From Bacteroidota bacterium (GTDB taxonomy: Bacteria; Bacteroidota; Ignavibacteria; Ignavibacteriales; Ignavibacteriaceae), in assembly GCA_022562275.1 (NCBI GenBank), contig JADFPP010000001.1, forward strand, positions 1 through 64,000: a stretch of 64,000 bases of DNA, written 5' to 3'. Made by a program: the position numbers and the translations under genes. Positions 18,417-35,791 of this stretch are shown here, piece after piece (positions within the stretch are counted from its first letter, which is position 1; every line of letters begins with the position of its first letter). The notes under the pieces are model-generated. The model ran no database searches and was not told the origin of the DNA. It saw nothing but the letters and a program-made list of their open reading frames with translations.

Positions 18417-19304
18417 ATGAAGGTCCTAAAAAATCTTTTTTACAAAATAAAGCTATCTTATATTCTCCTTGCCATTGCAATAATATACTTCTCTGAATTC
18501 TCCTATACCCAATACCAGGGCGAAACAATTTTTAAGAAAACCTGCATTGCCTGCCATACAATTGGCAGAGGTCGCTTAGTCGGTCCTGATCTTAAGGATA
18601 TTTTTGATAGACGCTCCGAAGAATGGATTCTCAGTTTTGTAAAATCATCACAAAGTATGATTAAGAGCGGAGATCCTGATGCAGTTGCAATCTTTAACGA
18701 GTATAACAAACTCGTTATGCTCGATCAAAACCTAACCGATGATCAGATAAAGGATATTATGCTTTACATTAAACAGCAATCTTCGGGCAGTGGGCAAACA
18801 ATTGCACTTACTGAGGATATTAAAAGCAGTACAGGGATGACAATAGATGAAGCTGGAGAGAATGAAGTTTCAGCCGGAAGAAATTTGTTTCTTGGAAAAG
18901 TACGGTTAAACAATGGAGGTCCGGCATGTATATCATGCCATAATGTAACCGGTGAAAATCTCATCGCAGGCGGACTGTTAGCTATGGATATAACAAATAC
19001 TTATTCAAGACTGAATGCCCCCGGGGTTTATTCAATTATGTTCAGTTCTCCGTTTCCAGTTATGAATGCTGCTTATAATAACAATAAGATCACCAAAGAT
19101 GAAGCATTTTATCTTATAGCTTTTCTAAAACAAGCAGATATCAATTCCGCAAATCAACAACCAGTTAATTATCAAAGTAATTTTATATTGATGGGACTGA
19201 TCGGTACGGTAATTCTCTTCGGAATATACGGAGGCATTTGGTGGAACAGGAAACGCAAACCCGTTAACGATAAAATTTTCAAAAGACAATTAAAAACATA
19301 CTAA
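18417..19304 (+). CDS. Diheme cytochrome c, membrane-bound
   Basis: This 295-residue protein has an N-terminal hydrophobic segment (residues about 13-30) and two cytochrome c domains. The haem sites are CIACH at residues 43-47 and CISCH near residue 173, with methionines available as sixth ligands. A second hydrophobic segment near residue 255 is followed by a basic tail (WWNRKRKP), so it should be anchored with haems outside the cytoplasm. It directly precedes narG. Some nar operons carry a similar cytochrome (NarC in Thermus), and electron transfer with the nitrate reductase is likely but inferred. Confidence 0.85.
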   Translation: MKVLKNLFYKIKLSYILLAIAIIYFSEFSYTQYQGETIFKKTCIACHTIGRGRLVGPDLKDIFDRRSEEWILSFVKSSQSMIKSGDPDAVAIFNEYNKLVMLDQNLTDDQIKDIMLYIKQQSSGSGQTIALTEDIKSSTGMTIDEAGENEVSAGRNLFLGKVRLNNGGPACISCHNVTGENLIAGGLLAMDITNTYSRLNAPGVYSIMFSSPFPVMNAAYNNNKITKDEAFYLIAFLKQADINSANQQPVNYQSNFILMGLIGTVILFGIYGGIWWNRKRKPVNDKIFKRQLKTY

Positions 19305-19338
19305 TTCAAAAACCATTTAATTTTTTAAGATCAATATT

Positions 19339-22300
19339 ATGAGTTGGATAAAAGATTTAATATCACCTGAAACCCGCGAGTGGGAAGAGTTTTACAGAAA
19401 CCGCTTTCAGCATGATAAAGTTGTAAGAAGTACACACGGTGTTAACTGTACAGGAGGATGTTCCTGGCAGATTCATGTTAAGGATGGAATCGTTGTTTGG
19501 GAAACCCAGCAATTAGATTACCCTTTACTTGAAAGCAGTCTGCCTCCTTACGAACCGCGCGGCTGCCAGAGAGGAATTTCATTTTCATGGTATCTATATA
19601 GTCCGTTAAGAATTAAGTACCCATTAATAAGAGGTAAACTGCTTGATGCTTATCGCGAAGAAAAAGAAAAAACCGGAGATTCTTTACAAGCCTGGGAAAA
19701 TCTTCAAAACAATAAAGAGAAGAGAAAAGAATATCAAACAGCAAGAGGTAAAGGCGGGTTTAGAAGGACTACCTGGGATGAAGTGCTTGAGATTATGGCG
19801 GCTGCAAATATTTACACAGCAAAAAAATATGGTCCTGATCGATTAGTCGGCTTCTCCCCAATTCCTGCAATGTCTATGTTAAGTTACGCAGCTGGAAGTA
19901 GATTTCTACAATTGTTTGGTGGAGTGAACCTTAGTTTTTATGATTGGTATTGCGATCTTCCAAATGCTTCACCGGAAATATGGGGTGAGCAGACAGATGT
20001 TTGCGAAAGTGCTGATTGGTATAATTCAAAGTTTATTGCAGTTATGGGTGCAAACCTGAATATGACCAGAACACCTGATTGTCACTTCTTCGCGGAGTCC
20101 CGGCATAACGGTACCAAAGCTGTGGTATTCTCACCTGATTTTAGTCAGGTTTCAAAGTATGCTGATCAATGGATTCCATTGCACGCAGGCAGCGACGGAG
20201 CTTACTGGATGGCTGTTACTCATGTAATATTAAAAGAATTTCATCATGAGAAACAAACTCCCTACTTCATCGATTATGTGAAGAAATATACCGACTCACC
20301 CTATTTAGTTGAAGTTGTAAAAGATGGTAATACTTACAAGCCGGGAAGATTAGTTCGTGCCAATCAAATATCAAAATATAAAAATGTAGAAAACGGTGAT
20401 TGGAAGTTCCTTAATATTGATGAGAAGAGCGGCGATCTTGTAATGCCTAAAGGAAGTATGGGGCACCGCTGGGATGAAAAAGGCGGCAACTGGAATATGA
20501 AACATGAAGATGCTGAAGATAACAAACAGTATAATCCTTTACTCACTCTTCTTAATAATAATGATGAAGTGTTACAGGTTGAGTTTACTGAATTTGGTTT
20601 AGATAATAAAAGAATGCGTGGAGTGCCGGTAAAAAATATTGAAACGATTGATGGAAAGAAGATTACAGTTACAACTGTTTACGATTTAACAATGGCTCAG
20701 TATGGCGTCAGCAGGGGTCTCAAAGGAGATTACCCTGAAGATTACAATGACAAAGATGCTGCATACACACCGGCGTGGCAGGAAATATTCACGGGTGTAG
20801 ATAAAAAAACAGTTGTACAATTTGCAAGAGAGTGGGCAAAAACAGCTGAAGTAACTGAAGGTAAATGTATGATCATTATCGGTGCGGGAGTAAACCACTG
20901 GTATCATAATAATCTCATTTACCGTGCAGGCATTATGGCGCTTATGCTATCCGGCTGCATTGGCAAGAATGGCGGCGGATTGAATCACTATGTTGGACAG
21001 GAAAAATTAGCTCCAATGGATTCTTGGAGTACTATTGCTTTTGCCAAAGATTGGCAGGATGCTGTGAGGTTACAGCAGGCGCCTATCTGGCATTATATTA
21101 ACACATGCCAGTACCGTTACGATGGTCATTTTTCAGAATATAACAAAGTGCCTGATAATGAATGGACAAAGGGGCATCTCGCAGATCATATTTATAGATC
21201 TGTAAGGATGGGCTGGATGCCTTTCTATCCGCAGTTTAACAAAAACACTTTTGAGTTAAGTAAGGAAGCCATAAACAACGGCGCCAAAAACGATGACGAA
21301 ATTAAAAAGTATGTTCTTGAAAAATTAAAATCAAAAGAACTTCATTATTCTATCAGTGATCCTGAGGCAGAGGAGAACTTCCCAAGAACCTGGTACATCT
21401 GGCGTGGTAACGCAATAATGGGAAGTATGAAAGGTCACGAATATCTTTTAAAACATTACCTCGGTACTCATTCAAACGCAATTGGAAAAGATATAACCGA
21501 TCAGAAAACTGAAGAAGTTAAGTGGCATGATATTGCACCAAAAGGAAAAATGGATCTTGTTGTAGATCTTAACTTCCGGATGGATTCCTCAGCGCTCTAT
21601 TCCGATATTATATTGCCTGCAGCTTCATGGTATGAAAAAGCAGATCTTAACAGTACCGATATGCATTCATTTATTCATCCTTTATCTGCAGCAATCGCAC
21701 CTGTTTGGGAATCAAAAACCGATTGGGATATATTCAAACTTATTGCCTTTGCAACAAGTGAGCTTGCTAAGAAACATTTTTCTGAACCGCTTAAAGATAT
21801 TGTAATTGCTCCTCTTGCACACGATACTGCTGATGAAATAACCCAGCCGACTGTTAAAGATTGGTATAAAGGTGAATGCGAAGCCATCCCTGGAAAAACA
21901 ATGCACAAGATTGCAATCGTGGAGAGAGATTATACAAAACTATATGATAAGTTTATCACTTTAGGTGAGAAAATTAAAACAAACGGACTCGGTGCGCATG
22001 GTAATCATTATATGTGTGAAGATTTTTATGATGAAATGATTGAATCCGCACATTTTCCGGTAGAAAAACTTAACGGTAAAACTTATCCTTCTCTTAAAGA
22101 AGATGTTTCGGCTGCTAATGCCGTATTGTTCCTTTCATCTTTAACAAACGGTGAGCTTACTGTTCGTGCATATAAAAATGCAGAAAAGAAAACAGGACTC
22201 GTTCTTGCCGATTTAGGTGAAGGAAGCAGGGATGTTAAAATTGATTACAAAGATTTGCAAGCACAACCAAGAAGATATAACTCTTCACCCTTATGGTCAG

Positions 22301-22959
22301 GGCTTATGCATAACGGCAGAGCGTACTCAGCATTTACCTACAATGTTGAAAGATTAGTTCCCTGGAGAACATTAACAGGTCGCCAGCATTTCTATTTAGA
22401 TCACGAGATGTACTTAGCTTTTGGTGAAAACCTTCCAACTTATAAGCCATCACCCAAACCTGAAGTTTACGGTGATTTAAGAGAGACTTTAAAAGAAGGT
22501 AAAGCAAAAATATTCAACTGCCTTACACCTCATGGTAAGTGGCATATACATTCAACTTACGGCGATACGCTTAGGATGTTAACCCTTTCCCGTGGATGTG
22601 AACCTTGCTGGATAAATGAAGAAGATGCAAAAGATCTCGGTATTAATGATAATGATTTTGTAGAAGTTTATAACGATCACGGTGTTTATTGCACGCGTGC
22701 CTGCGTAAGCAGCAGGATTCCAAAAGGAGTTACAATTGTTTACCACGTACCGGAACGAACAGTAGGTATTGTCAAATCTCAGGTAAGAGGGAATAAACGT
22801 GCCGGCGGACATAACAGCTTTACCCGCATTCATTTAAAACCAAACCTGCTTGCTGGCGGTTACGGACAGTTCACTTATCACTTTAATTACTGGGGTCCAA
22901 CTGCTGTAAACAGGGATACACACGTTGTAATTAAAAAGATGACTAAAGTCGTTTATTAA
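19339..22959 (+). CDS. narG: Respiratory nitrate reductase alpha subunit
   Basis: A 1206-residue molybdopterin enzyme that reduces nitrate to nitrite. The FS0 cluster motif is present as H33-x3-C37-x3-C41-x34-C76, with histidine replacing the first cysteine, as in E. coli NarG. The segment [20 protein letters not shown] contains the aspartate that binds molybdenum in this family. There is no twin-arginine export signal, so it should stay in the cytoplasm like classic Nar. The C-terminal dinucleotide-binding domain is complete. It lies 34 bases after the cytochrome gene and is separated from narH by an unusual 275-base gap. It needs the cofactor made by the moa/moe/mob operon. Confidence 0.97.
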
Positions 22960-23234
22960 TTTATCCCGCATTTTGCGGGATGATTTAATAGATATGAATT
23001 ATTAAAATAATTATAAACCGTTAAAACGGTTAGAAATATTGTTAAGTTATTCTTAACCCACGACTTAAGTCGTGGGTTAATGAAAACCAAAAAAGACTCG
23101 AACCGTTTTAACGGTTTTCATTAAGTTTTTAAGTGAACTTATTTATGATTTTTAATAATGGATAAAGAAGAACTTAAGAAACGGACAGAAAAAACAATAG
23201 TAAATAATCAATAATAAATAGAAAATTAAAAATT
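22960..23234. repeat. Nested palindromes in the narG-narH gap
   Basis: A short hairpin (ATCCCGC, five-base loop, GCGGGAT) lies at 22963-22981, right after the narG stop. Two copies of an AACCGTT-type palindrome follow in mirror order: AACCGTTAAAACGGTT at 23016-23031 and AACCGTTTTAACGGTT at 23101-23116. They flank a perfect 28-base palindrome centred on CTTAAG at 23053-23080. The whole unit looks like a composite REP/MITE-type element. At 23158 an 18-residue open frame (MDKEELKKRTEKTIVNNQ) precedes narH. It may be the stump of a four-helix-bundle gene. Confidence 0.75.
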
Positions 23235-24785
23235 ATGGATGTCAGATCACAAGTTTCAATGCTTTTTCATCTTGATAAATGTATTGGCTGCCACACATGC
23301 TCTATTGCATGTAAAAATATTTGGACCGATAGAAAAGGTGCAGAATATATGTGGTGGAATAATGTCGAGACAAAACCTGGTACTGGCTACCCTACTAAAT
23401 GGGAAGACCAGGATATTTATAAAGGCGGATGGGAAAAGAACGGTAAAAGTGTATCACTAAAAGGTTCAGGAAAATTAAAAGGATTGGTTAACATATTTCA
23501 CAATCCCCATCTTCCTGTTATAGATGATTACTACGAACCGTGGACGTACAAGTATTCAGATCTAATTGAAGCACCTGCACAGGATGACCAGCCGACTGCA
23601 AGACCAATATCACTTATCACAGGCAAACCAATTGAAATAAAAGCCGGACCAAACTGGGATGATGATTTAAGCGGTACACCAGATTATGCAAGGAAAGATC
23701 CAAACCTGCAAAACCTCTCCCCTGCTGAACAGGAAGCAATGTTCCAGCTTGAAAAGATGGCATTCTTTTATCTTCCAAGAATTTGTAATCATTGTCTTAA
23801 TCCAGCTTGCGTTGCCTCTTGTCCATCAGGTGCAATTTACAAACGCGGCGAAGATGGAGTAGTTCTTATAAACCAGAAAGTATGCCGTGCGTGGAGAATG
23901 TGTGTTACAGCATGTCCCTATAAAAAATCATACTACAACTGGAGCACAGGAAAATCTGAAAAATGTATTTTATGCTATCCAAGAATTGAATCGGGAATTG
24001 CTCCTGCTTGTATGCATTCCTGCGTAGGAAGAATAAGGTACCTGGGTGTTATGCTTTACGATGCTGACAGGATCAACGAAGTTGCCTCCGCAGATATAAA
24101 CAATCTCGTCAACAGCCAGTTAGATATTATCCTCGATCCGTTTGATGAAGACGTAATTGCTTCAGCGAAGGAAAACGGCGTTGCAGATTCCACAATAAAA
24201 GCTGCACAAGATTCTCCCGTTTACAAGTTCGTAAAAGAATGGGGCATTGCATTACCGTTGCATCCTGAGTTTAGAACTTTACCGATGTTGTTTTATGTTC
24301 CACCAATGTTGCCCGTTATGGCATCTTTAAGCGAACAGAGAAATAAAGAACAGCTTGATAAGCTTGATCCTATTGCAAAAAAATGGGATGATGATTGGCT
24401 TTACGATACCAGCACAGAAGAATTATGGGGAACAATTGAAGAGGCAAGGTTCCCGCTTCAGTATATGGCAAATCTATTTAGTGCCGGCGATACTTGCAAA
24501 ATAAAAGATATTATGAAAAAGCTTATGGCTGTAAGAATTCACCGCAGGGACAAAACCGTTGGCGATCTTGATAAAGAAAATGTTAAAAAAACATTAAAAG
24601 ATGTTAATCTAAGCACCGACGAAGCAGATGACATTTACTATTTAACTTCTCTTGCAAAATTTGATGACCGTTTTGTTATACCTCCTGCACACCGCGAACA
24701 AGCTATTGAGATGATTGAAAATACAGGTGATGTAAAAGGTTCAAGCGGTTTTGGTTTTATAGAAAAACCTGCAAGAGGAATTTGA
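23235..24785 (+). CDS. narH: Respiratory nitrate reductase beta subunit
   Basis: This 516-residue electron-transfer subunit carries one 3Fe-4S and three 4Fe-4S clusters. The cysteine groups are CIGCHTCSIACKNIW near residue 16, CNHCLNPACVASCPSG near 186, CRAWRMCVTACPYKK near 219 (tryptophan in place of one cysteine, the mark of the 3Fe-4S site) and CILCYPRIESGIAPACMHSC near 246. These match NarH of E. coli in order. It moves electrons from NarI haem to NarG. Start ATG 23235 opens the conserved MDVRSQVSM. It is followed closely by narJ. Confidence 0.97.
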   Translation: MDVRSQVSMLFHLDKCIGCHTCSIACKNIWTDRKGAEYMWWNNVETKPGTGYPTKWEDQDIYKGGWEKNGKSVSLKGSGKLKGLVNIFHNPHLPVIDDYYEPWTYKYSDLIEAPAQDDQPTARPISLITGKPIEIKAGPNWDDDLSGTPDYARKDPNLQNLSPAEQEAMFQLEKMAFFYLPRICNHCLNPACVASCPSGAIYKRGEDGVVLINQKVCRAWRMCVTACPYKKSYYNWSTGKSEKCILCYPRIESGIAPACMHSCVGRIRYLGVMLYDADRINEVASADINNLVNSQLDIILDPFDEDVIASAKENGVADSTIKAAQDSPVYKFVKEWGIALPLHPEFRTLPMLFYVPPMLPVMASLSEQRNKEQLDKLDPIAKKWDDDWLYDTSTEELWGTIEEARFPLQYMANLFSAGDTCKIKDIMKKLMAVRIHRRDKTVGDLDKENVKKTLKDVNLSTDEADDIYYLTSLAKFDDRFVIPPAHREQAIEMIENTGDVKGSSGFGFIEKPARGI

Positions 24786-24815
24786 TTAACAAAATTATAA
24801 ACGAAAAAACTATCA

Positions 24816-25478
24816 ATGACAAATAAAAATATAAATCACTACGAAAAATTAGCTCAACTGTTTCAATATCCTAAAGCTAATTACAAGGAAAAAGTAGAGG
24901 TGGCTGAAACTGTTTTAAGTGAACTATATCCTGAAACTCTTAAAACTTTTAAACAATTTTCCGATTTTGTTTCCAATAGTTCGCTCGATGAAATTACAGA
25001 GATCTTTACTCGGACTTTTGATGTTCAGGCAATAACTACCCTTGATGTAGGTTATGTACTTTTTGGTGATGATTACAAAAGAGGTGAATTGCTTGTAAAC
25101 CTGAACCGCGAACATCGTGAAGCAGCTAATGAATGTACTGACGAACTGGCAGATAATTTTTCAAACCTTTTATCGCTACTTCCGAAGATGCAAAACCACG
25201 ATATAAGGGATGAGCTTGTTGAGATGATTATCATGCCCGGTCTTATAAAAATCATTAACGAATTTGATACTAAAAACATAAACTTAAAGAATAAAGTTTA
25301 CCAAAAGCAGTATAAAACTATAATTGAACAATCAGAAGATTATGGAAGAATATTTCTTATACCGCTAATGGTTGTTTATAAAATTATTGAAAGTGATTTT
25401 GGATACATCAAACCAATAGAAGAGAATAATAAAAACAATTTTACAGATGCAATAACATCTGAAATTGAGATAGATTAA
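24816..25478 (+). CDS. narJ: Nitrate reductase assembly chaperone
   Basis: A 220-residue all-helical protein of the NarJ/TorD chaperone family, which helps insert the molybdenum cofactor into NarG and then dissociates. The conserved stretch FTRTFDVQAITTLDVGYVLF, then GDDYKRGELLVNLNREHREA, is the NarJ signature. It sits between narH and narI, the usual place. There are no membrane segments. The length is close to family norm (about 200-240). Confidence 0.92.
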   Translation: MTNKNINHYEKLAQLFQYPKANYKEKVEVAETVLSELYPETLKTFKQFSDFVSNSSLDEITEIFTRTFDVQAITTLDVGYVLFGDDYKRGELLVNLNREHREAANECTDELADNFSNLLSLLPKMQNHDIRDELVEMIIMPGLIKIINEFDTKNINLKNKVYQKQYKTIIEQSEDYGRIFLIPLMVVYKIIESDFGYIKPIEENNKNNFTDAITSEIEID

Positions 25479-25498
25479 TAATTAAATAATTAAGAACC

Positions 25499-26227
25499 AT
25501 GGACTTACTTAATAACTTTCTTTTTATCGCTTTGCCTTATGTTGCTTTAACGGTTTTCCTTATTGGAACTATTTATCGCTACAAAGGCACTAAGTTTAAA
25601 TTTTCATCTTTATCCTCCCAATTTCTGGAAGGTAAAAAACTATTCTGGGGTTCAGTTCCTTTCCATTATGGAATCATGGTTTTATTCTTCGGACATTTAA
25701 TAGCATTCTTGCTGCCGGATGTGATCCTCTCGTGGAACAGCAGTCCGTTACGATTGATGATTTTGGAAGTATCAGCATTTATTTTTGGTTTAAGTGCATT
25801 AGTTGGAATGTTTAACCTTTTATTAAGGCGTAAGACCAATCCAAGAATTGAGATGCTCACAACCAAGATGGATCTGCTTATTGAGTTAATTCTGTTAGTG
25901 CAGATATTTTTTGGTCTGTGGATCGCTTACGAATACCGCTGGGGTTCTTCGTGGTTTGCATCAGTTATGTCACCATACTTAAAATCAATATTCACACTTA
26001 ATCCTCAGATTGATGCGGTATCGAGTATGCCGTGGGTAATTAAAATACATGTATCACTTGCGTATGTTATTTTACTGCTTATTCCTTTCACCAGGTTAGT
26101 TCATTTATTAGTATTTCCTTTAAGCTATCTATGGCGTCCATATCAAAAAGTAATTTGGTATTGGAACAGAAAAAAAATACGTGACCCGAAAACATTATGG
26201 AATGTAACGCGTTCAAAAAACAATTAA
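25499..26227 (+). CDS. narI: Respiratory nitrate reductase gamma subunit (cytochrome b)
   Basis: This 242-residue membrane protein has five hydrophobic helices. Histidines in the helices that bind the two b haems are visible in YGIMVLFFGHLIAFL and, near the C-terminus, in IHVSLAYVILLLIPFTRLVH. NarI oxidises quinol and passes electrons to NarH. It ends the narGHJI set and begins 20 bases after narJ. The length (about 225-245) fits the family. Confidence 0.93.
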   Translation: MDLLNNFLFIALPYVALTVFLIGTIYRYKGTKFKFSSLSSQFLEGKKLFWGSVPFHYGIMVLFFGHLIAFLLPDVILSWNSSPLRLMILEVSAFIFGLSALVGMFNLLLRRKTNPRIEMLTTKMDLLIELILLVQIFFGLWIAYEYRWGSSWFASVMSPYLKSIFTLNPQIDAVSSMPWVIKIHVSLAYVILLLIPFTRLVHLLVFPLSYLWRPYQKVIWYWNRKKIRDPKTLWNVTRSKNN

Positions 26228-26296
26228 ATAAGTCCAGTAGTTTATTTAGAATAGTAAAATAAATCACTTTATCAATAATGTTTATTTTTAGGATTT

Positions 26297-27793
26297 ATGG
26301 AAGAAACAGTTACAAAAAAAGCTCATAAAATTCTATTCTTTAATACACTGGCATTTACAATTTGCTTTGCAGCATGGATGTTGAACGGTGTACTGGTAAC
26401 TTTTTTAGTTGATAACCAGGTTTTTGATTGGGGACCAATCGAGATTGGCTGGTTAATGGGTATCCCTGTTCTTACGGGTGCTTTATTTCGTCTGCCCGCT
26501 GGCATATTAACAGATAAATTCGGTGGCAAACCGGTGTATGGTATTTTACTCTTCATAAGTGCTATTCCTATGTTTCTACTTTCTTATGCGGATAGCTTTT
26601 TCGGGTTTGCATTAGCAAGTTTCGGTTTTGGACTTACTGGAGTAAGCTTCGCCATTGGAATTGCTTTTACTTCGGTTTGGTATCCTAAACATTGGCAGGG
26701 AAGAGCATTGGGAATATTTGGCGCCGGGAATGCAGGCGCTGCAATAACTACATTGTTTGCTCCAACCTTATTAAACAATCTAACAGATAACGGTGCAAAC
26801 ATTGAAGGATGGAGGTATTTACCAGTCATTTACGCCGCCGCATTAATTGTAATGGGAATTATATTCCTGATCTTCACCGAAAATAAGAAGCCTCCCGCTA
26901 AAAATAAATCTTTAAAAGGAATACTGGCACCATTAAAAGATAAAAGAGTGTGGAGATTTGGGCTTTACTATTTTCTTGTATTCGGATGTTTTGTTGCATT
27001 CTCACAATGGTTAGTTCCTTATTTTGTTAATGTTTACTACTTACCGCTTGTTACCGCCGGAATTTTCGCTGCTTTATTCAGTTTCCCATCTGGTGTTATT
27101 CGTGCAGTTGGCGGCTGGATGTCCGATCACTGGGGAGCGAGAAAAGTTATGTTCTGGGTCCTTGCTTCTTCAGTTCTGATTAGTATTATGCTTACTATCC
27201 CGAGAATGGAAGTTTACTCCCCTGGAAGAGGAATAATGAATAAAAGAAGTGGTGAAGTTACCTTTGTTTCGGATTCACTTATCCAGGTTGGAGATATAAA
27301 TTATTCAGTCATTTCAAAATCAAACAAGACTGATATTATAGATGATCAGCTCCTTGTTTTACCAACCAAAGAAGTATGGCAGGAAACAGTTGTAAAGGTT
27401 GGAGACAAAGTTTCAAAAAAACAATTGCTGGCTAAAGGAGTTACAAGAATATATTTTCAGGCAAACGTATGGATATTCGCAGTTTTAATTATTCTTATCG
27501 GCAGTATATGGGGAATAGGCAAAGCAGGTGTCTATAAATTAATTCCAGACCATTTCCCGGATGAAGTAGGAGTAGTTGGCGGAATGGTAGGTGTTTTAGG
27601 AGGACTTGGAGGATTTTTCTGTCCAATTATTTTTGGTTATTTATTGGAGGGAACCGGTTTATGGACAAGCTGCTGGATGTTCATGCTTCTGCTATCAGTT
27701 ATTTGCCTGATTTGGTTGAATAAATCTAATAAAGAGGAGGCAACTTATAAAGCGGAGCACATTGAACTTATTGCTAAGCACGATAATAATTGA
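26297..27793 (+). CDS. narK: NarK-type nitrate/nitrite MFS transporter (first)
   Basis: This 498-residue MFS transporter has about 12 membrane helices. The NarK signatures GFGLTGVSFAIGIAFTSVWY and GKAGVYKLIPDHFPDEVGVV are present, along with MFS loops (GILTDKFGGKPVYG; GWMSDHWGARK). Between helices 9 and 10 there is an extra hydrophilic segment of roughly 85 residues (about 302-388), with PGRGIMNKRSGEVTF and VVKVGDKVSKKQLLAKGVT, which looks like a small beta-rich domain. It lies 69 bases after narI, so it is probably in the nar transcript. Whether it moves nitrate in or nitrite out is not decided by sequence. Confidence 0.9.
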   Translation: MEETVTKKAHKILFFNTLAFTICFAAWMLNGVLVTFLVDNQVFDWGPIEIGWLMGIPVLTGALFRLPAGILTDKFGGKPVYGILLFISAIPMFLLSYADSFFGFALASFGFGLTGVSFAIGIAFTSVWYPKHWQGRALGIFGAGNAGAAITTLFAPTLLNNLTDNGANIEGWRYLPVIYAAALIVMGIIFLIFTENKKPPAKNKSLKGILAPLKDKRVWRFGLYYFLVFGCFVAFSQWLVPYFVNVYYLPLVTAGIFAALFSFPSGVIRAVGGWMSDHWGARKVMFWVLASSVLISIMLTIPRMEVYSPGRGIMNKRSGEVTFVSDSLIQVGDINYSVISKSNKTDIIDDQLLVLPTKEVWQETVVKVGDKVSKKQLLAKGVTRIYFQANVWIFAVLIILIGSIWGIGKAGVYKLIPDHFPDEVGVVGGMVGVLGGLGGFFCPIIFGYLLEGTGLWTSCWMFMLLLSVICLIWLNKSNKEEATYKAEHIELIAKHDNN

Positions 27794-27820
27794 ATCTAAA
27801 AAAATTAATAGGTGTTAATA

Positions 27821-29440
27821 GTGCCACATGTAAATATTAAAGAGTGGAGAGTAGAAGATGAAGATTTTTGGAACTCCACCGGAAAAAAGATAGCCAACCG
27901 GAATTTATGGATATCTATTCCAAGCTTGCTTTGCGGGTTTGCTGTTTGGCTTATGTGGGGAATTATAACAGTTCAGATGCTGAACTTAGGATTTCCATTT
28001 GAACAAAGCGAATTATTCACACTTGCTGCTATTGCAGGTTTAACCGGTGCAACTCTCAGAATTCCAAGTACATTCTTCATAAGAATAGCCGGTGGAAGAA
28101 ATACAATCTTTTTCACCACTGCCCTTCTTATGATTCCTGCATTAGGAACAGGGTTGGCATTAATGGATAAAGATACTCCTCTCTGGGTATTTCAACTTCT
28201 TGCTTTATTATCAGGTTTGGGCGGCGGAAATTTTGCTTCTTCCATGTCCAACATAAGTTTCTTCTTTCCCAAAAGAGTTCAGGGAACTTCGCTTGGATTA
28301 AATGCCGGTCTCGGAAACTTCGGGGTTACAACAATGCAGGTACTCATTCCTTTAGCTATGACCATCGGGTTGTTTGGTGTTTTGGCTGGCGAATCATCGG
28401 AGTTGATAAATACAAGCGGTACACTGATTGGCAAAATACCTGCCGGCTCGGAAACCTGGATTCAAAATTCCGGTTTTATATGGCTGCTGTTTTTAATACC
28501 ATTAGCTTTTGCCGGCTGGTTTGGGATGAATAATTTAGCAACTGAATCCGTTACACCAAATCCCGGTAACCCGGTTAGTGCATTTACCAAAATATCCGGG
28601 CTTCTTTTTATCGGCTTTGTTACTGCGGTAGCCGGATTGTATCTCTTATTACCACCTCCCTTAGGTATCGGTTTGTTAAGCAAATGGGTTGTGCTTCCAA
28701 TAATAATTGGTGCAACTGTTTTGTTAATGAGATACTTAACCAGGGGCGAACTGCAGCAGAATCTCAAACGTCAGTACAAGATATTCAACAATAAACATAC
28801 CTGGGCAATGACCATCATCTATACTATGACCTTTGGTTCTTTCATAGGTTTTTCAGCAGCATTTCCTCTTGCAATAAAGGTAATATTTGGTTTCAGTCAT
28901 GTTCCTGGTGCTGATGGAAATATGACGCATGATATTATAAACCCCAATGGACCAAGTGCTTTAACTTATGCCTGGATGGGACCATTTATTGGTGCATTGA
29001 TAAGACCCATTGGTGGATGGTTCTCGGATAAAGTTGGTGGTGCTAAAGTAACACAGATTGTTTCCATTGTTATGATAGTTTCTACATTAGGTGTTGCTTA
29101 TTTTATGGCAGCGGCTTATCAGTCTGCTACTCCCGAACAATATTTCCTCCCATTTTTTATTTTATTTATTGTTTTATTCACTGCAACAGGAGTCGGTAAT
29201 GGTTCCACATTCAGAACTATTGCAATGGTGTTTAATAAAGAACAAGCCGGTCCTGTTCTTGGATGGACGTCTGCTGTTGCAGCTTACGGCGCATTTATAA
29301 TTCCAAAAGTTTTAGGCGAAGAAATAAAAGCTACTACTCCAGAATATGCTTTATATGGTTTTGCAATTTTCTATTTTGTTTGTTTAGCGCTTAACTGGTG
29401 GTTTTATTTAAGACCAAATGCTTATGTTAAAAATCCTTAA
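27821..29440 (+). CDS. narK: NarK-type nitrate/nitrite MFS transporter (second)
   Basis: This 539-residue protein (from GTG 27821) belongs to the NarK family. It has GLGGGNFASSMSNISFFFPK, a nitrate-signature loop near residue 140, and FMGPFIGALIRPIGGWFSDK late in the protein. It has about 12 helices with a moderate insertion and an N-terminal soluble tail (VPHVNIKEWRVEDEDFW). A GTG at 27812 is also possible, but an AGGTG site at 27810-27814 fits GTG 27821. Together with the preceding gene it resembles tandem NarK1/NarK2 pairs, in which the two copies may favour symport and antiport. The direction cannot be read here. Confidence 0.88.
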   Translation: MPHVNIKEWRVEDEDFWNSTGKKIANRNLWISIPSLLCGFAVWLMWGIITVQMLNLGFPFEQSELFTLAAIAGLTGATLRIPSTFFIRIAGGRNTIFFTTALLMIPALGTGLALMDKDTPLWVFQLLALLSGLGGGNFASSMSNISFFFPKRVQGTSLGLNAGLGNFGVTTMQVLIPLAMTIGLFGVLAGESSELINTSGTLIGKIPAGSETWIQNSGFIWLLFLIPLAFAGWFGMNNLATESVTPNPGNPVSAFTKISGLLFIGFVTAVAGLYLLLPPPLGIGLLSKWVVLPIIIGATVLLMRYLTRGELQQNLKRQYKIFNNKHTWAMTIIYTMTFGSFIGFSAAFPLAIKVIFGFSHVPGADGNMTHDIINPNGPSALTYAWMGPFIGALIRPIGGWFSDKVGGAKVTQIVSIVMIVSTLGVAYFMAAAYQSATPEQYFLPFFILFIVLFTATGVGNGSTFRTIAMVFNKEQAGPVLGWTSAVAAYGAFIIPKVLGEEIKATTPEYALYGFAIFYFVCLALNWWFYLRPNAYVKNP

Positions 29441-29464
29441 TAATAAAAGTAGTAGGTTTAGTAT

Positions 29465-30118
29465 ATGAATGAGAAACAATTAAATACAGAAGACCCTATT
29501 AAAAGATTTGTAGAAAAAGAGACTGAAATGGATGAGATGTCTCCAATGAATCCTCCTGAAGCATTTGCTCCTTCAACCGCTGAGCCGGTTGCTTACAATG
29601 ATATGGCACCATTTCTTCAAAAATTAATGGATGAGCATAAAATATTTATTGAAGTACTAAATAAATTTGAATCGGCATTGATTAGCTGGAAGAAAAATGA
29701 TTGGGCTTTCAATGATGAAATCGACAATGGCTTAAAAGAATTGTTTTCATTTATTGATAAAAATACTCCTGTGCATAACAGGAAAGAAGAAAAAGAATTA
29801 TTTCCACTTCTGCACAAAAGATTATTGGAATCAGGTGAACACAGTACTGCAGATAATCCCAGAACAGCAATTGATATTATGGAAGATGAACACATTAAAG
29901 TTGCTCAGCTTGGTGCATTGTGTTTGAACTTTTTAGGATTGGGATCAAGAATAGAGGATAACAAATCCCGTGAAATTATTTTTGAACTTGCTTTTGATCA
30001 GGGAAAAGCTATCGTGGATACAATGAGGCTTCATATATTCAGGGAAGATGAAACACTCTTCCCTCTTGCGATGAAACTCATATCGAAAGAAGAATTTGAA
30101 GAGATGGATACTTCATAA
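29465..30118 (+). CDS. Hemerythrin-domain protein at the end of the nar cluster
   Basis: This 217-residue protein has a low-complexity N-terminal tail (residues 1-45) and one HHE di-iron domain. The ligand pattern includes LMDEHKIFIEVL, VHNRKEEKELFPLL, MEDEHIKVAQLG and LHIFREDETLFPLAMKL. It follows the second NarK gene with a 24-base gap, so it is probably in the same transcript. Oxygen or nitric-oxide binding is the usual role of the family. Its last 16 codons are duplicated at 31124-31171. Confidence 0.82.
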   Translation: MNEKQLNTEDPIKRFVEKETEMDEMSPMNPPEAFAPSTAEPVAYNDMAPFLQKLMDEHKIFIEVLNKFESALISWKKNDWAFNDEIDNGLKELFSFIDKNTPVHNRKEEKELFPLLHKRLLESGEHSTADNPRTAIDIMEDEHIKVAQLGALCLNFLGLGSRIEDNKSREIIFELAFDQGKAIVDTMRLHIFREDETLFPLAMKLISKEEFEEMDTS

Positions 30119-31109: not shown

Positions 31110-31171
31110 TTTTTCCGTTAGTGATGAAACTCATATCCAAAGAAGAATTTGAGGAAATGGAAACTATTTAG
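31106..31171 (+). pseudogene. Duplicate of the hemerythrin gene 3' end
   Basis: The plus strand reads TFFPLVMKLISKEEFEEMET, then I and stop, nearly identical to the last residues of the hemerythrin protein at 29465-30118 (TLFPLAMKLISKEEFEEMDT). At DNA level most of the 48 bases from ATG 31124 match. The 5' part of the copy is missing. It is about 1.05 kb downstream of the original, so the HicAB genes and other fragments lie between the two copies. Confidence 0.8.
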
Positions 31172-31335
31172 AATTATTATAATATTTGTAAATTATATTC
31201 ATTAATAACCTATATTTTGCATTGGTCATTTATATAGAGTTTTTTAAAATTAAAAGAAAAGCCCGAAAATTTATTTAATATAATATAACCGGAGTTCTAT
31301 CCAAAAAAATATTTGAATTAATAATATAATTACTA

Positions 31336-31451
31336 TCTCCGAGTTACCGATTCTCTAAGTCTTCAAATTGATACGAGCGGTAACCGATAGGGTTGATTTA
31401 GAAATGAGTTAGCCTGCCAGTCCGTTTCAAACGGACCGCTTGCAAAGGAGA
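31336..31451 (+). ncRNA. Predicted molybdenum-cofactor (Moco) riboswitch aptamer
   Basis: The leader of the molybdopterin operon folds into a compact multi-stem element. An outer stem pairs TCTCC (31336-31340) with GGAGA (31447-31451). GTTACCG (31343-31349) pairs with CGGTAAC (31378-31384), and a hairpin GTCCGTTT/AAACGGAC covers 31420-31436. Between them the strand reads AGGG...AGAAATGAGTTAGCCTGCC and later GCAAAGGAG. From memory this matches the Moco RNA motif ahead of E. coli moaA (CTCCtAG, GAAATGA, GCCTcCC, AAAGG). The terminator and antiterminator downstream support a riboswitch. A Rfam covariance search would settle it. A tungsten-cofactor variant is possible. Confidence 0.75.
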
Positions 31452-31513
31452 AAAATTTGAAATTTTCTTTATTAAATTTCAATCAACCCTGTATGCAATG
31501 CGGGGTTTTTTTT
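31389..31513 (+). terminator. Terminator with competing antiterminator in the Moco-operon leader
   Basis: AACCCTG (31485-31491) and CGGGGTT (31501-31507) form a stem, which eight Ts (31506-31513) overlap and extend, an intrinsic terminator 22 bases before the first gene. AATCAACCCT (31481-31490), which includes its left arm, is exactly complementary to AGGGTTGATT at 31389-31398 inside the aptamer. Pairing there would break the terminator. Cofactor binding to the aptamer could hide the antiterminator strand and stop transcription when Moco is plentiful. Confidence 0.7.
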
Positions 31514-31535
31514 ATAACTAAAAAGGAGCAGAGCA

Positions 31536-31850
31536 ATGAACCAGATACCAAAAAGATATACGAAGTTCAAAGAAGATTATCCTGATGCAGCATCTGCGTA
31601 TGAATCAATGGGTGATGCTGTGCATAAAGCAGGACCATTGGATGACAAAACAAGAGCTTTAATAAAACTGGCAATTTCAACCGGCGCACGTCTGGAAGGT
31701 GCTGTTCATTCACACGTAAGGAAGGCAATTAGAGAAGGAGCAACGAAGGAAGAAATGCACCAGGTAGCCTTACTTTCATTACCTACTGTCGGATTGCCTT
31801 CAATGATGGCTGCATTATCGTGGATTGATGATATAATTGAGGATAAATAA
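31536..31850 (+). CDS. Carboxymuconolactone decarboxylase (CMD/AhpD)-family protein
   Basis: This 104-residue protein is one CMD domain: LDDKTRALIKLAISTGARLE, then GAVHSHVRKAIREGATKEEM and a final helix. The CxxC motif of AhpD-type peroxidase partners is absent (EGAVHSHV), so redox activity of that type is not expected. It is the first gene after the predicted riboswitch, with a good site (AAGGAG). Its stop touches the start of the next gene. Its role in a molybdopterin operon is unknown. Confidence 0.8.
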   Translation: MNQIPKRYTKFKEDYPDAASAYESMGDAVHKAGPLDDKTRALIKLAISTGARLEGAVHSHVRKAIREGATKEEMHQVALLSLPTVGLPSMMAALSWIDDIIEDK

Positions 31851-32372
31851 ATGATCCAGCTATTTGAATTACTGCTATCATTTATTAAAGTCGGTTCGTT
31901 TTCATTTGGCGGAGCTTACTCTTTAATCCCATTAATTGAAAGGGAAGTAGTCCAAAATCATAGCTGGCTTACACAGGATGAATTCTTAAAAGTTTTAGGA
32001 ATGGTTGAAGTTTTCCCCGGTGCTATTTCTATTAAGTTTGCCACCTATACCGGTTACAAAGTTGCCGGAATTCCGGGAGCGTTGGTGGCAAATTTAGGTA
32101 ATTTTATTATGCCTGCTACAATAATTATGATTGCCGCTTATTTCTATACTCAATATGAAAAGAATGAAATAGTAACAAAGATATTTACCGGAGTTAAATT
32201 TGCAATAGTTGGAATGATAGTCGCAATAATGTATCAATATGCCGTTAAAAATTTTGCAGATGCAAGAAGTCTGATCTTCATTCTGATTGGTGCTGCACTT
32301 ATAATTTTATTCAAACTCCATCCTGCATTTGTAGTTATAATTGCCGGAATATTAGCCGTTATTATTTTATAA
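31851..32372 (+). CDS. Half-size chromate transporter (ChrA/CHR family)
   Basis: This 173-residue membrane protein has about five hydrophobic segments and a single CHR domain: GSFSFGGAYSLIPLIEREVV and the LGMVEVFPGAISIKFATYTG stretch with the conserved proline-glycine. Full ChrA has two such domains. Half-size ones usually work as pairs, but no second copy is adjacent here. It begins directly after the CMD gene stop. Family members move chromate or sulfate-like oxyanions. In this operon molybdate handling is conceivable but unproven. Confidence 0.82.
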   Translation: MIQLFELLLSFIKVGSFSFGGAYSLIPLIEREVVQNHSWLTQDEFLKVLGMVEVFPGAISIKFATYTGYKVAGIPGALVANLGNFIMPATIIMIAAYFYTQYEKNEIVTKIFTGVKFAIVGMIVAIMYQYAVKNFADARSLIFILIGAALIILFKLHPAFVVIIAGILAVIIL

Positions 32373-32438: not shown

Positions 32439-33464
32439 ATGACCAAAACAAGAAAATATAAACAGATGAAACTAATAGACAATTTTAACAGGGTCCATGA
32501 TTATCTTCGCATATCATTAACCGATAAGTGCAATCTTAACTGTATTTATTGTAACCCTGATCATCACATTCATTTTGGTTTTAACAACGATAAAATTTTA
32601 TCCTACGAAGAAATCTTGAAGATCATCCGCATTTTTGCTGGCTCTTTGCAATTTAAAAAAATTAGATTCACAGGCGGAGAGCCGCTTGTACGCAGGGGTG
32701 TTTTTGATCTTTTTGAAAAAGTAAAGAAAATTAAGGATGAGTTTGATATTCAATTTGGAATTACTACAAATGGAACTTTATTAAAAGGGAATGCACTCCG
32801 GCTAAAGAATTCCGGGATAGAAAAGTTAAATATAAGTCTTGATTCTTTGCAACGGGAAAAATTCTTAAAAATAACAGGCAGGGATAACTTACAAGATGTA
32901 CTTGATGCCATAAATGAATCTGAAGCGGCGGGATTCAATCCTGTAAAGATAAACGTGGTAGTGATACGAAATATAAACGATAATGAAATACTTGATTTTG
33001 TAGAATTTGTAAAAGACCGTAATCTCAATATTCGCTTTATCGAATTTATGCCGTTCGGTAATAATCAATGGCAGCGCGATGGATTTATTAGCTATAAAGA
33101 GATGAAAGATATTATTGAATCAGAATATATTCTGAATCCTCTTTATTCTGATGTTAGCGACGTTGCAAAAGATTTTTCAATCTCCGGGTTTAAAGGAAAA
33201 GTAAGTTTTGTTACTTCAATGTCCGAGCATTTTTGCAACACCTGCAGCCGTTTGCGTATATCTGCAGATGGAAAAATGAGAGTGTGTCTATTCTCAACTG
33301 GTAAAGAGGAGATCAATTTTAAAACTCTTTTAAGAAACAATTACTCTGAAACAGAAATAATTGAACTTGTACATAGCGCAATTAAATATAAATGGGAGAA
33401 ACATCCCGAACCGGAAGAATTGGCAAAACTGGAACAGAACAATATGTTAACAATAGGCGGATGA
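32439..33464 (+). CDS. moaA: GTP 3',8-cyclase MoaA
   Basis: This 341-residue radical-SAM enzyme makes the first intermediate of the molybdenum cofactor from GTP. The N-terminal CNLNCIYC cluster site (in RISLTDKCNLNCIYCNPDHH), the RFTGGEPLVRRGV segment, the C-terminal CNTCSRLRISADGKMRVC site (C-x2-C-x13-C) and a final GG tail are all present. The first ATG (32439) is inside a repeat. ATG 32466 (MKLIDNFNRVHDYL) fits the usual family start better, though either has only a weak ribosome-binding site. It overlaps moaC by a few bases. Confidence 0.95.
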   Translation: MTKTRKYKQMKLIDNFNRVHDYLRISLTDKCNLNCIYCNPDHHIHFGFNNDKILSYEEILKIIRIFAGSLQFKKIRFTGGEPLVRRGVFDLFEKVKKIKDEFDIQFGITTNGTLLKGNALRLKNSGIEKLNISLDSLQREKFLKITGRDNLQDVLDAINESEAAGFNPVKINVVVIRNINDNEILDFVEFVKDRNLNIRFIEFMPFGNNQWQRDGFISYKEMKDIIESEYILNPLYSDVSDVAKDFSISGFKGKVSFVTSMSEHFCNTCSRLRISADGKMRVCLFSTGKEEINFKTLLRNNYSETEIIELVHSAIKYKWEKHPEPEELAKLEQNNMLTIGG

Positions 33465-33937
33465 TGAAAGATTTTTCTCACATCGATAAAAATGGTAAAG
33501 CAGCAATGGTTGATGTTAGCGAAAAGAATATCACCGAAAGAACCGCAGAAGCTTACGCAGAGGTTAATGTTTCAGAAAAGGTTTTCAGCAAAATTAAATT
33601 GAATGAAGTAGCCAAAGGTGATGTATTAACGGTTGCGAAAATTGCCGGTATTCAGGCAGCAAAAAAAACATCGGAACTTATTCCGCTTTGTCATAATATT
33701 TTCATTTCAAAAATTGATCTGAATTTTGAATTGAATGAGGAATCAAACACAATTGAAATTTATTCTTTTGCAAAAACAAATTCTGTTACAGGAGTTGAAA
33801 TGGAAGCACTTACCGCTGTAAATATTGCTGCCATTACAATTTATGATATGTGCAAATCAATTGATAAATCAATTAAGATTAATAACATTCATCTTCTCTC
33901 TAAAACCGGGGGGAAGAGTGGCAATTACTCTGCGTGA
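33461..33937 (+). CDS. moaC: Cyclic pyranopterin monophosphate synthase
   Basis: A 158-residue protein that converts the MoaA product to cyclic pyranopterin phosphate. The conserved FSHIDKNGKAAMVDVS start, TSELIPLCHNIFIS core and GVEMEALTAVNIAAITIYDM stretch are present. The longer upstream open frame is an overlap into moaA. The ATG 33461 start (overlapping the moaA stop, ATGA) opens the true family N-terminus, with ATG 33464 as an alternative. Confidence 0.95.
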   Translation: MMKDFSHIDKNGKAAMVDVSEKNITERTAEAYAEVNVSEKVFSKIKLNEVAKGDVLTVAKIAGIQAAKKTSELIPLCHNIFISKIDLNFELNEESNTIEIYSFAKTNSVTGVEMEALTAVNIAAITIYDMCKSIDKSIKINNIHLLSKTGGKSGNYSA

Positions 33938-33962: not shown

Positions 33963-35171
33963 ATGCTTAGCTATTTACAAGCACGTGAATTAATTGATAA
34001 AGAGTTTGATAATCTTGATCTGAAAATTGAAGAAGCAGAACTTGAAACCGCACTTAACAGAACCCTTGCTGAAGATGTTTATGCTGATGTAAATCTCCCG
34101 TCCTTTAATAATTCCGCTGTTGATGGAATAGCAATAAAATTCAATGACCCAATTAAAGAATGGAATATTATTGGAGAGATTTCTGCGGGGAATTATTCTG
34201 AATTAAATATTGTTGACACCTCGGCTGTAACAATAATGACAGGTGCAAAAGTGCCAGATTTTTGTGATACTGTAATTCCTCTTGAGAATTATGTTATGAG
34301 TAAAGATAAAGTTTCTTTAAGTGAAGGTGTAAAGTTTAAAAGAGGAATGAACATTCGCAAACAAGGAAGCGATGTTAATGAAGGTGAATTGATATTAGGT
34401 AAAAGTTTACAATTAAATCCGCGAAACATTGCTGCGGCAGCTTCATGCGGTAAAAGCAGGTTGAAAGTCTATTCAAAATTAAAGTTTGCCGTTCTTGCAA
34501 CAGGCGATGAACTGATTGATGTAAATGAAAAGCCCTCCGGTGATAAGATCCGTATTTCAAATACGTATGGACTTTGCTCTGCTATTGAAGAATTATGGCA
34601 AACTTCCGTTAACCTTAGTTTCATTACTGATGATAGAGAAACACTTACCCGGAAAATTAAAGACATCCTGAACTCTGATATTAATATTTTAATTACAACC
34701 GGCGGTGTTTCTGTCGGTAAGTTTGATTATCTAAAAGATGTATTTGCCGAATTAGGTGTAAAAGAAATATTCTGGCGTGCAAATATCAAGCCTGGCAAAC
34801 CTGCTTTCCTTGGTAAGTATGAAAACAACGGTAAATCAATTTTAGTTTTTGGTCTGCCCGGTAATCCTGTTTCGTGTATGGTAAATTTTGATGTTTACAT
34901 TCGTCCGAATATTATCACCAAATATGGTCTTGCAGAAACAGAATGTATTTCCGCAAAGCTGGAAAATGATATTCGTAAGAATGATAAGAAAAGACATTTC
35001 ATTCGTGGAAACATCCAGAAAGATAATGGTGGCAAGTATTTAGTAACTTCTAAAAAATCTCAATCATCAGGTAATCTTGTTGGATTCAGCTCATCGAACT
35101 GTTTGATTGTAATCGAAGAAGAAAAACTATCACCAAAAAAAGGAGAGATTGTTAAATGCATAAGGATGTAA
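33963..35171 (+). CDS. moeA: Molybdopterin molybdenumtransferase
   Basis: A 402-residue enzyme that inserts molybdenum into molybdopterin. The SFNNSAVDGIAIKF motif near residue 49 and the MTGAKVPDFCDTVIPLE stretch are in the N-terminal half. ITTGGVSVGKFDYLKDVFAE and GLPGNPVSCMVNF mark the MoeA catalytic domain. A C-terminal domain IV follows (about residues 325-402). Length is typical. It overlaps mobA by 16 bases. Confidence 0.95.
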   Translation: MLSYLQARELIDKEFDNLDLKIEEAELETALNRTLAEDVYADVNLPSFNNSAVDGIAIKFNDPIKEWNIIGEISAGNYSELNIVDTSAVTIMTGAKVPDFCDTVIPLENYVMSKDKVSLSEGVKFKRGMNIRKQGSDVNEGELILGKSLQLNPRNIAAAASCGKSRLKVYSKLKFAVLATGDELIDVNEKPSGDKIRISNTYGLCSAIEELWQTSVNLSFITDDRETLTRKIKDILNSDINILITTGGVSVGKFDYLKDVFAELGVKEIFWRANIKPGKPAFLGKYENNGKSILVFGLPGNPVSCMVNFDVYIRPNIITKYGLAETECISAKLENDIRKNDKKRHFIRGNIQKDNGGKYLVTSKKSQSSGNLVGFSSSNCLIVIEEEKLSPKKGEIVKCIRM

Positions 35172-35791
35172 CGGGAATAATTCTCTCAGGCGGCAAGAGC
35201 AGCCGAATGGGTCAAAATAAATCTTTAATGAAAATTGGAGGGACAACAATAATAGAGGGTGTAGTTGATTTAATGTTGTCTCTATTCCCGGAGGTAATTC
35301 TTATAACAAACGAACCCGATGATTATAAATTTCTCGGTCTTCCAACTTATGAAGACGTCTTCAGACACAGAGGTCCTTTAGCAGGGATTCACTCAGGACT
35401 TAAACATTCCAAAACAAATATAAATTTTATTATCTCCTGCGATCTGCCTTTAATGACAAAGGAAATGATAAATTATTTGATGGAATATAAAACCGATAAA
35501 TTAATAACCGTTGCAAAAGCAGATGGATTTATTCAACAATTAGCAGGCAAGTATTCCAAAGAATGCCTTTCCCCTTCTGAAAATATATTAAAAGAAGTGG
35601 TAAATAATGAAAACAGAGATGCAGTTCAGAAAAAGAGAAAATGCAATGTGTTAAGTTTAATTGATTTACTTGGTGCTGAAATTATTTCCGCAGAATCCCT
35701 GCCGTTTTATAATGAAGACTTATATTTTAATATGAACCGTACCGAAGATTATAATTTGCTGCTGAATAAATTGAGATTAAAAGAGAAATAA
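35156..35791 (+). CDS. mobA: Molybdenum cofactor guanylyltransferase
   Basis: This 211-residue nucleotidyltransferase adds GMP to molybdenum cofactor to form MGD, the form NarG needs. It has GIILSGGKSSRMGQNKSLMK at the N-terminus, the RHRGPLAGIHSGL motif and ISCDLPLMT with the metal aspartate. It starts at ATG 35156 inside the moeA end. moaD, moaE and moaB/mog are not in the window. A diverged relic of a second mobA-type gene is at 30871. Confidence 0.92.
   Translation: MHKDVTGIILSGGKSSRMGQNKSLMKIGGTTIIEGVVDLMLSLFPEVILITNEPDDYKFLGLPTYEDVFRHRGPLAGIHSGLKHSKTNINFIISCDLPLMTKEMINYLMEYKTDKLITVAKADGFIQQLAGKYSKECLSPSENILKEVVNNENRDAVQKKRKCNVLSLIDLLGAEIISAESLPFYNEDLYFNMNRTEDYNLLLNKLRLKEK

Follow-up and report, generated by a model that had tools for sequence, protein, structure and literature searches.

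A P3-less riboswitch of the Moco/Tuco class with a conserved predicted antiterminator upstream of a molybdenum cofactor operon in Ignavibacteriales

Introduction

The leader of the molybdenum cofactor (Moco) operon described here raises the question of which metal its RNA senses, as the shape of the aptamer predicts tungsten sensing, yet the genome seems to hold molybdenum enzymes only. Discrimination between molybdenum and tungsten by Moco RNAs has rested on correlation with a single stem, P3, which accompanied Moco and was absent with tungsten genes in 17 of 19 organisms (Regulski et al. 2008, PMC2408646). Deletion of P3 from the E. coli Moco RNA merely broke the RNA (PMC2408646). The locus lies within a 64-kb stretch of an Ignavibacteriales genome (hereafter the window; its genome is G000), for which an initial annotation had proposed a Moco riboswitch with terminator and antiterminator controlling a Moco operon that feeds NarG.

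Results and discussion

The operon and its neighbourhood

The genes around the leader were assigned by profile matches:

18417-30118, forward strand: upstream cluster of cytochrome c, narG (19339-22959), narH, narJ, narI, two narK and a RIC-like gene
31536-31850, forward strand: CMD-family protein, 104 aa (PF02627), first gene of the operon
31851-32372, forward strand: CHR, single-domain 'chromate transporter', 173 aa (PF02417, 155.6 bits), candidate molybdate importer
32439-33464, forward strand: moaA (TIGR02666, 334.5 bits, over cutoff)
33461-33937, forward strand: moaC (TIGR00581, 193.9 bits, domain from residue 28 of a long open reading frame)
33963-35171, forward strand: moeA (PF03453, PF00994, PF03454)
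35156-35791, forward strand: mobA-like nucleotidyltransferase (PF12804, 108.2 bits; under the NCBIfam MobA cutoffs)

The moaA, moaC, moeA and mobA genes thus follow the RNA as the initial annotation had read them, although it had missed the CMD protein and the CHR transporter as the first two genes. The link to NarG also holds: narGHJI lies upstream, narG matches TIGR01580 with 1483.6 bits, and the nar cluster is a client of the cofactor. The moaC reading frame as listed begins at 33392 and overlaps moaA by 73 bases; its start is more likely the ATG at 33461, in an ATGA overlap with the moaA stop. A lone HicB-like reading frame (PF05534, 30487-30822) lies between the nar cluster and the riboswitch. 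The CMD protein is well conserved (GAVHSH.RKA) and lacks a CxxC motif, and its place at the head of the operon raises the question of its role in Moco supply.

An aptamer of the RF01055 class without P3

An Infernal search of the whole window with Rfam 15 returned a single match at the gathering threshold, to RF01055 (59.3 bits against a cutoff of 36, E 1.1e-11), which is also the only RF01055 match in the 3.4-Mb genome. This was the check that the initial annotation had suggested for its Moco motif call, and the call stands. The stems, the strong hairpin, the motifs, the terminator and the complementarity to P4 that it had described were all recovered where it had placed them. The parts of the aptamer are:

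31325-31466, forward strand: Moco/Tuco riboswitch aptamer (RF01055), P3-less, matching model positions 1-135 with a gap at the P3 positions
31336-31451, forward strand: P1, TCTCC 31336-31340 with GGAGA 31447-31451, read from the sequence
31343-31384, forward strand: P2, GTTACCG 31343-31349 with CGGTAAC 31378-31384, with an inner CTAA region; inner pairs compensatory in 19 leaders
31390-31415, forward strand: P4, 31390-31400 with 31405-31415, GAAA tetraloop 31401-31404, from folding and compensatory changes
31416-31443, forward strand: P5, closing pairs G31416-C31443 and C31417-G31442 with inner hairpin GTCCGTTT/AAACGGAC, from the Rfam alignment

Together with the conserved junction bases, P1, P2, P4, P5 and the tetraloop make up the structure expected of RF01055, both the CCTGCC and the GCAAAGGAG motif are present, and genes of the kind expected beside this class (Moco/Tuco synthesis, transport or clients) adjoin the RNA. 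Only CGAUA stands between P2 and P4 in place of P3. This absence, which is the structural mark of the tungsten cofactor (Tuco) subclass, went unmentioned in the initial annotation. The leader folds well below its shuffles (z-score -5.1).

Among 164 genomes of the order, 38 have an RF01055 match at E ≤0.001 (36 above cutoff). The 39 leaders were divided by the first P5 pair into 26 with G-C, the subtype of the window (CCUGCC..GCAAAGGAG or close variants), and 13 with C-G or otherwise different, mostly CCUCCC..GGAAAGGAG and matching the Rfam consensus, which has C-G first. In three leaders (L026, L188 and L193) P2 is enlarged by over 100 inserted bases, which Infernal skips, giving aptamer lengths of 259-280. 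In 19 P3-less G-C leaders, 13 of 22 consensus pairs have changes on both sides, while the P1 pairs (invariant) and the base of P4 are too constant to give covariation. Loss of the paired bases in relatives that keep the operon had been named beforehand as grounds for refutation; instead the pairs are kept by compensation, and four relatives keep a CMD-CHR-moaA operon without a detected RNA, which takes nothing essential from the call but shows that the RNA is dispensable.

Those four operons, and a sigma-70 pattern search that gave no promoter match above chance, would suit a structured leader that has decayed or does not sense a ligand and resembles RF01055 by inheritance only. Such a leader is very improbable given the high RF01055 score, the covariation and the joint variation of terminator and aptamer (see below). 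Judged by its sequence, the Ignavibacteriales leader is a genuine member of the RF01055 Moco/Tuco riboswitch class.

Two leader subtypes in the order

Within the order the P5 swap separates gene contexts fully. Each of the 26 G-C leaders stands ahead of a Moco operon that begins with CMD, mostly CMD-CHR-moaA-moaC-(MOSC)-moeA-mobA, compared with 0 of the 13 others; three genes intervene between leader and operon in L176, and the operons of L194 and L179 run off their contigs. Ten of the 13 precede genes for a pair of ECF-like permeases and a TonB receptor (L020, L021, L024, L025, L027, L187, L189, L190, L196 and, on a contig cut after the first gene, L181), one heads a fused permease-NTPase with a TonB receptor (L172), and two directly precede moaA. 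The paired permeases have about 200 and 183 aa and often lie alongside an NTPase_1 protein; this system looks made for uptake of a cofactor or of a metal chelate. The related fused permease of L049 has an ECF S-component as its top Foldseek match (E 0.11, low-confidence model). Other bis-MGD-type enzymes often precede the Moco operon, such as TtrA-like (L026) and PhsA-like (L032) proteins, both below curated cutoffs. On one contig of G148, L030 (G-C, CMD operon) and L020 (C-G, TonB system) lie about 20 kb apart and form a natural pair for ligand comparison.

The P5 swap was also considered as a code for molybdenum or tungsten and was rejected as a simple one, since G-C RNAs outside the order precede genes of several kinds (AOR genes, TonB receptors, ModA-like proteins and Moco operons).

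Terminator, antiterminator and the proposed switch

Downstream of the aptamer the following elements were placed:

31485-31513, forward strand: intrinsic terminator, AACCCTG 31485-31491 with CGGGGTT 31501-31507 plus T run, from terminator search and sequence
31436-31444, forward strand: antiterminator 5' part CCGCTTGCA, in the conserved register
31494-31503, forward strand: antiterminator 3' part TGCAATGCGG, comprising the terminator loop and the start of its 3' arm, complementary to 31436-31444
31389-31398, forward strand: alternative strand AGGGTTGATT of the initial annotation, complementary to AATCAACCCT at 31481-31490, possible additional antiterminator of this species

The terminator is the single terminator-like site in 31150-31560 and stands between the aptamer and the first gene, in agreement with the termination platform proposed at the outset. 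As the CMD start codon (31536) lies beyond it and is unpaired with the aptamer, this anatomy suggests control at transcription. The transcriptional part of the initial annotation is thereby upheld, although such control is not novel, since terminator-type and P3-less Moco RNAs were already described (Regulski et al. 2008, PMC2408646) and E. coli moaA is itself subject to Rho-dependent termination (PMC7815308).

Intrinsic terminators were found by script behind most leaders of the order and by eye behind three more (L185, L191, L194). Complementary runs between terminator hairpin and aptamer 3' end average 8.6 in the 26 G-C leaders, compared with 5.3 in shuffled sequence, and p is below 0.05 in 20 of the 26. 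A hairpin pairs more strongly with the aptamer end of its own leader (-14.1 kcal/mol) than with those of other species (-12.3 kcal/mol); with one leader per genus p ranged from 0 to 0.001 over 20 draws, a result that is strong rather than absolute, as the permutation leaves some relatedness in. Both sides of the antiterminator have changed together in L180 and L186 (GCGAAG with CUUCGC) and in L182 (GUUUUGC with GCAAAAC). The register differs between leaders because the conserved aptamer end is palindromic (CUUUGCAAAG). That of the window joins CCGC-UUGCA (31436-31444) to UGCAA-U-GCGG (31494-31503) by nine pairs with one bulge, and a longer stretch of pairing between the 3' end and the terminator reaches -16.6 kcal/mol (p 0.012 against shuffles). 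By computed complementarity, the aptamer 3' end and the terminator thus share a conserved pairing that would exclude both the aptamer and the terminator.

The antiterminator of the initial annotation, the P4 5' strand with 31481-31490, is exact in the window (10 Watson-Crick pairs, p ~0.002 against shuffles), and was not the pairing conserved in relatives: runs between this strand and the terminator average 5.2, compared with 5.1 in shuffled sequence, and 0 of 22 leaders conserve it. As a general mechanism it was rejected on this ground. It could nevertheless be the working antiterminator at this locus with the riboswitch otherwise unchanged, as transcripts that stop at 31492 and at 31499 are predicted to have the P4 form as their minimum-energy fold. 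Once the transcript reaches 31503, however, the 3'-end form takes over, and conservation lies with the 3'-end pairing, so that the P4 strand as the working antiterminator appears rather doubtful. By predicted energy, both forms are less stable than the aptamer combined with the terminator by about 5 kcal/mol (-51.5 and -51.0 compared with -55.9), and in the window the conserved form, bulge included, is no better than the P4 form (-51.5 compared with -51.0). Both pairings may act in turn; since the P4 form is favoured in the folds of the two shorter transcripts, it may add an extra early antiterminator step in the species of the window.

With the 3'-end pairing as the general antiterminator, scarce cofactor would leave the aptamer 3' end (31436-31444) free to pair with the terminator loop and 3' arm (31494-31503). 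This antiterminator would block the terminator and allow transcription of CMD-CHR-moaA-moaC-moeA-mobA, raising metal uptake and cofactor synthesis. Bound cofactor would instead lock P1, P4 and P5 and hold the 3' end within the aptamer, upon which the terminator (31485-31507) would form and transcription would stop. The ligand would here most likely be the molybdenum cofactor, destined for NarG and one xanthine-dehydrogenase-family (XDH) enzyme. Based on the RF01055 score, the compensatory pairs, the terminator, the conserved complementarity of hairpin and 3' end, the CMD-led operons and the genome content, we consider it probable that this molybdopterin-metal-cofactor riboswitch is a transcriptional OFF switch whose ligand is most likely the molybdenum cofactor.

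Molybdenum or tungsten

By the P3 rule the same RNA, with the same mechanism, could sense the tungsten cofactor or fail to tell the two metals apart. P3 is absent, as in the organisms behind that 17-of-19 correlation, and in a wider scan of the sequence collection for the G-C core, which gave at least 115 loci with a match and at least 76 with an aptamer-like P4, AOR genes follow at least 20 of the 76 aptamer-like loci listed. AOR genes were called by similarity to two Pfam-confirmed AORs (from Eubacterium aggregans and a Caldisericaceae MAG), and outside Ignavibacteriales these loci agree with the rule.

The genome of the window points the other way. No match to PF01314, PF13531 or PF12849 was found in it, AOR is absent from what is by estimate a 100% complete assembly, and searches for ModA/WtpA-type proteins, PBP_like_2/TupA-type binding proteins, MOT1 and sulfite-oxidase-type enzymes gave none. 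MoaE is present. Its PF00384 proteins are NarG and two that we take, from sequence and neighbours, to be a NuoG and a complex-III-like protein, which leaves NarG as the only Mo/W-type enzyme of that family, plus one XDH-family protein. P3 also comes and goes ahead of the same operon within the order, being clear in L178, L188 and L193; a clear P3 in L172 precedes a different operon. Contrary to the rule, two of the four clear-P3 genomes (G409, G416) have AOR, compared with 0 of the remaining 34, although this association (Fisher p 0.009) is small, post hoc and uncorrected for relatedness and serves as a lead only.

As AOR and ModA/WtpA- or TupA-type proteins are lacking and the Mo/W-pterin enzymes come down to NarG and one XDH-family protein, the P3 rule probably fails in G000. 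We judge molybdenum likelier than tungsten as the metal here, and a tungsten-sensing or non-discriminating RNA unlikely. As the same operon occurs in the order both with P3 and lacking it, and the genomes concerned either have a tungsten-type enzyme or do not, the rule becomes directly testable.

The CHR transporter

The second gene of the operon belongs to family PF02417 (155.6 bits against a gathering score of 28.6), which is named for chromate efflux, and could therefore encode an efflux pump for chromate or an excess oxyanion. It falls below the curated cutoffs of every matching NCBIfam chromate-efflux model (103.5/171.7, 91.6/250 and 80.3/250), although single-domain length lowers these scores, which taken alone are compatible with efflux. 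CHRs of Moco operons cluster together (support 100/98), separately from the order's two-domain CHRs, and four members of this clade lie in CMD-CHR-moaA operons without a detected RNA. A Foldseek search with the CHR model (pLDDT 77) gave no match, and no PDB relative was found by sequence.

The slot between CMD and moaA holds CHR behind most leaders. In G416 it is taken by a MOT1 molybdate transporter (PF16983, 180.9 bits), and in G140, which is of the same genus as the window and is the other genome with strong MOT1 matches, MOT1 follows a Moco RNA and CHR is lacking. TauE occupies the slot in L079 and L145 and an ECF-like permease in L115. Molybdate import is the simplest function common to these occupants, and because MOT1, TauE or an ECF-like permease takes the place of CHR in relatives, the single-domain CHR is probably a molybdate importer, as judged from context. 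An OFF switch that would raise the gene when cofactor is scarce also suits import, and together with the separate clade and the exchange with MOT1 this makes efflux unlikely. In this way the leader allows a function to be predicted for one single-domain clade within the 'chromate' transporter family.

The broader proposal, that the P3-less Moco RNAs of Ignavibacteriales sense the molybdenum cofactor, P3 absence being no determinant of tungsten, and that single-domain CHR represents a new type of importer for molybdate, interchangeable with MOT1, is tentative, as we give it slightly less than an even chance.

Comparison with known systems

Riboswitches of this class, their terminator platform and forms without P3 have been known since 2008. 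The novelty lies in the host group and the operon, in an antiterminator that is conserved, in a conflict with the P3 rule and in the function predicted for the transporter; Moco riboswitches are now placed in Ignavibacteriales. A literature search found no earlier report of them in this order, the only paper joining Ignavibacteria, riboswitch and molybdenum being that on the Caldithrix genome. It likewise found no paper joining 'chromate transporter', 'molybdate transport' and moaA; the paper with both the CHR family and molybdate deals with chromate resistance.

The E. coli moaA Moco RNA (PMC2408646) has the same aptamer class, with P1, P2, P4, P5, the GAAA tetraloop and a site ahead of moaA, and its repression by the cofactor would be shared by the RNA of the window. 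The latter differs in lacking P3, in having G-C rather than C-G as its first P5 pair, in using an intrinsic terminator where E. coli has a ribosome-binding-site platform, and in having CMD and CHR as the first genes controlled. The P3-less RNAs assigned to tungsten (Regulski et al. 2008) share the absence of P3 and in some cases, e.g. Syntrophomonas wolfei, an intrinsic terminator, whereas the window belongs to a genome without AOR, ModA/WtpA- or TupA-type proteins and its operon lies beside narGHJI. At the Caldithrix abyssi locus (PMC5317091) a Moco riboswitch, Moco genes and a molybdate transporter likewise occur together, but that transporter is of PF16983 (MOT1) rather than CHR and the RNA lies 1130 nt upstream of its gene. 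With the CHR family (PF02417), finally, the transporter of the window shares its sequence family, but it is single-domain, encoded by one gene within a Moco operon and placed in a clade of its own, and its predicted function is molybdate import.
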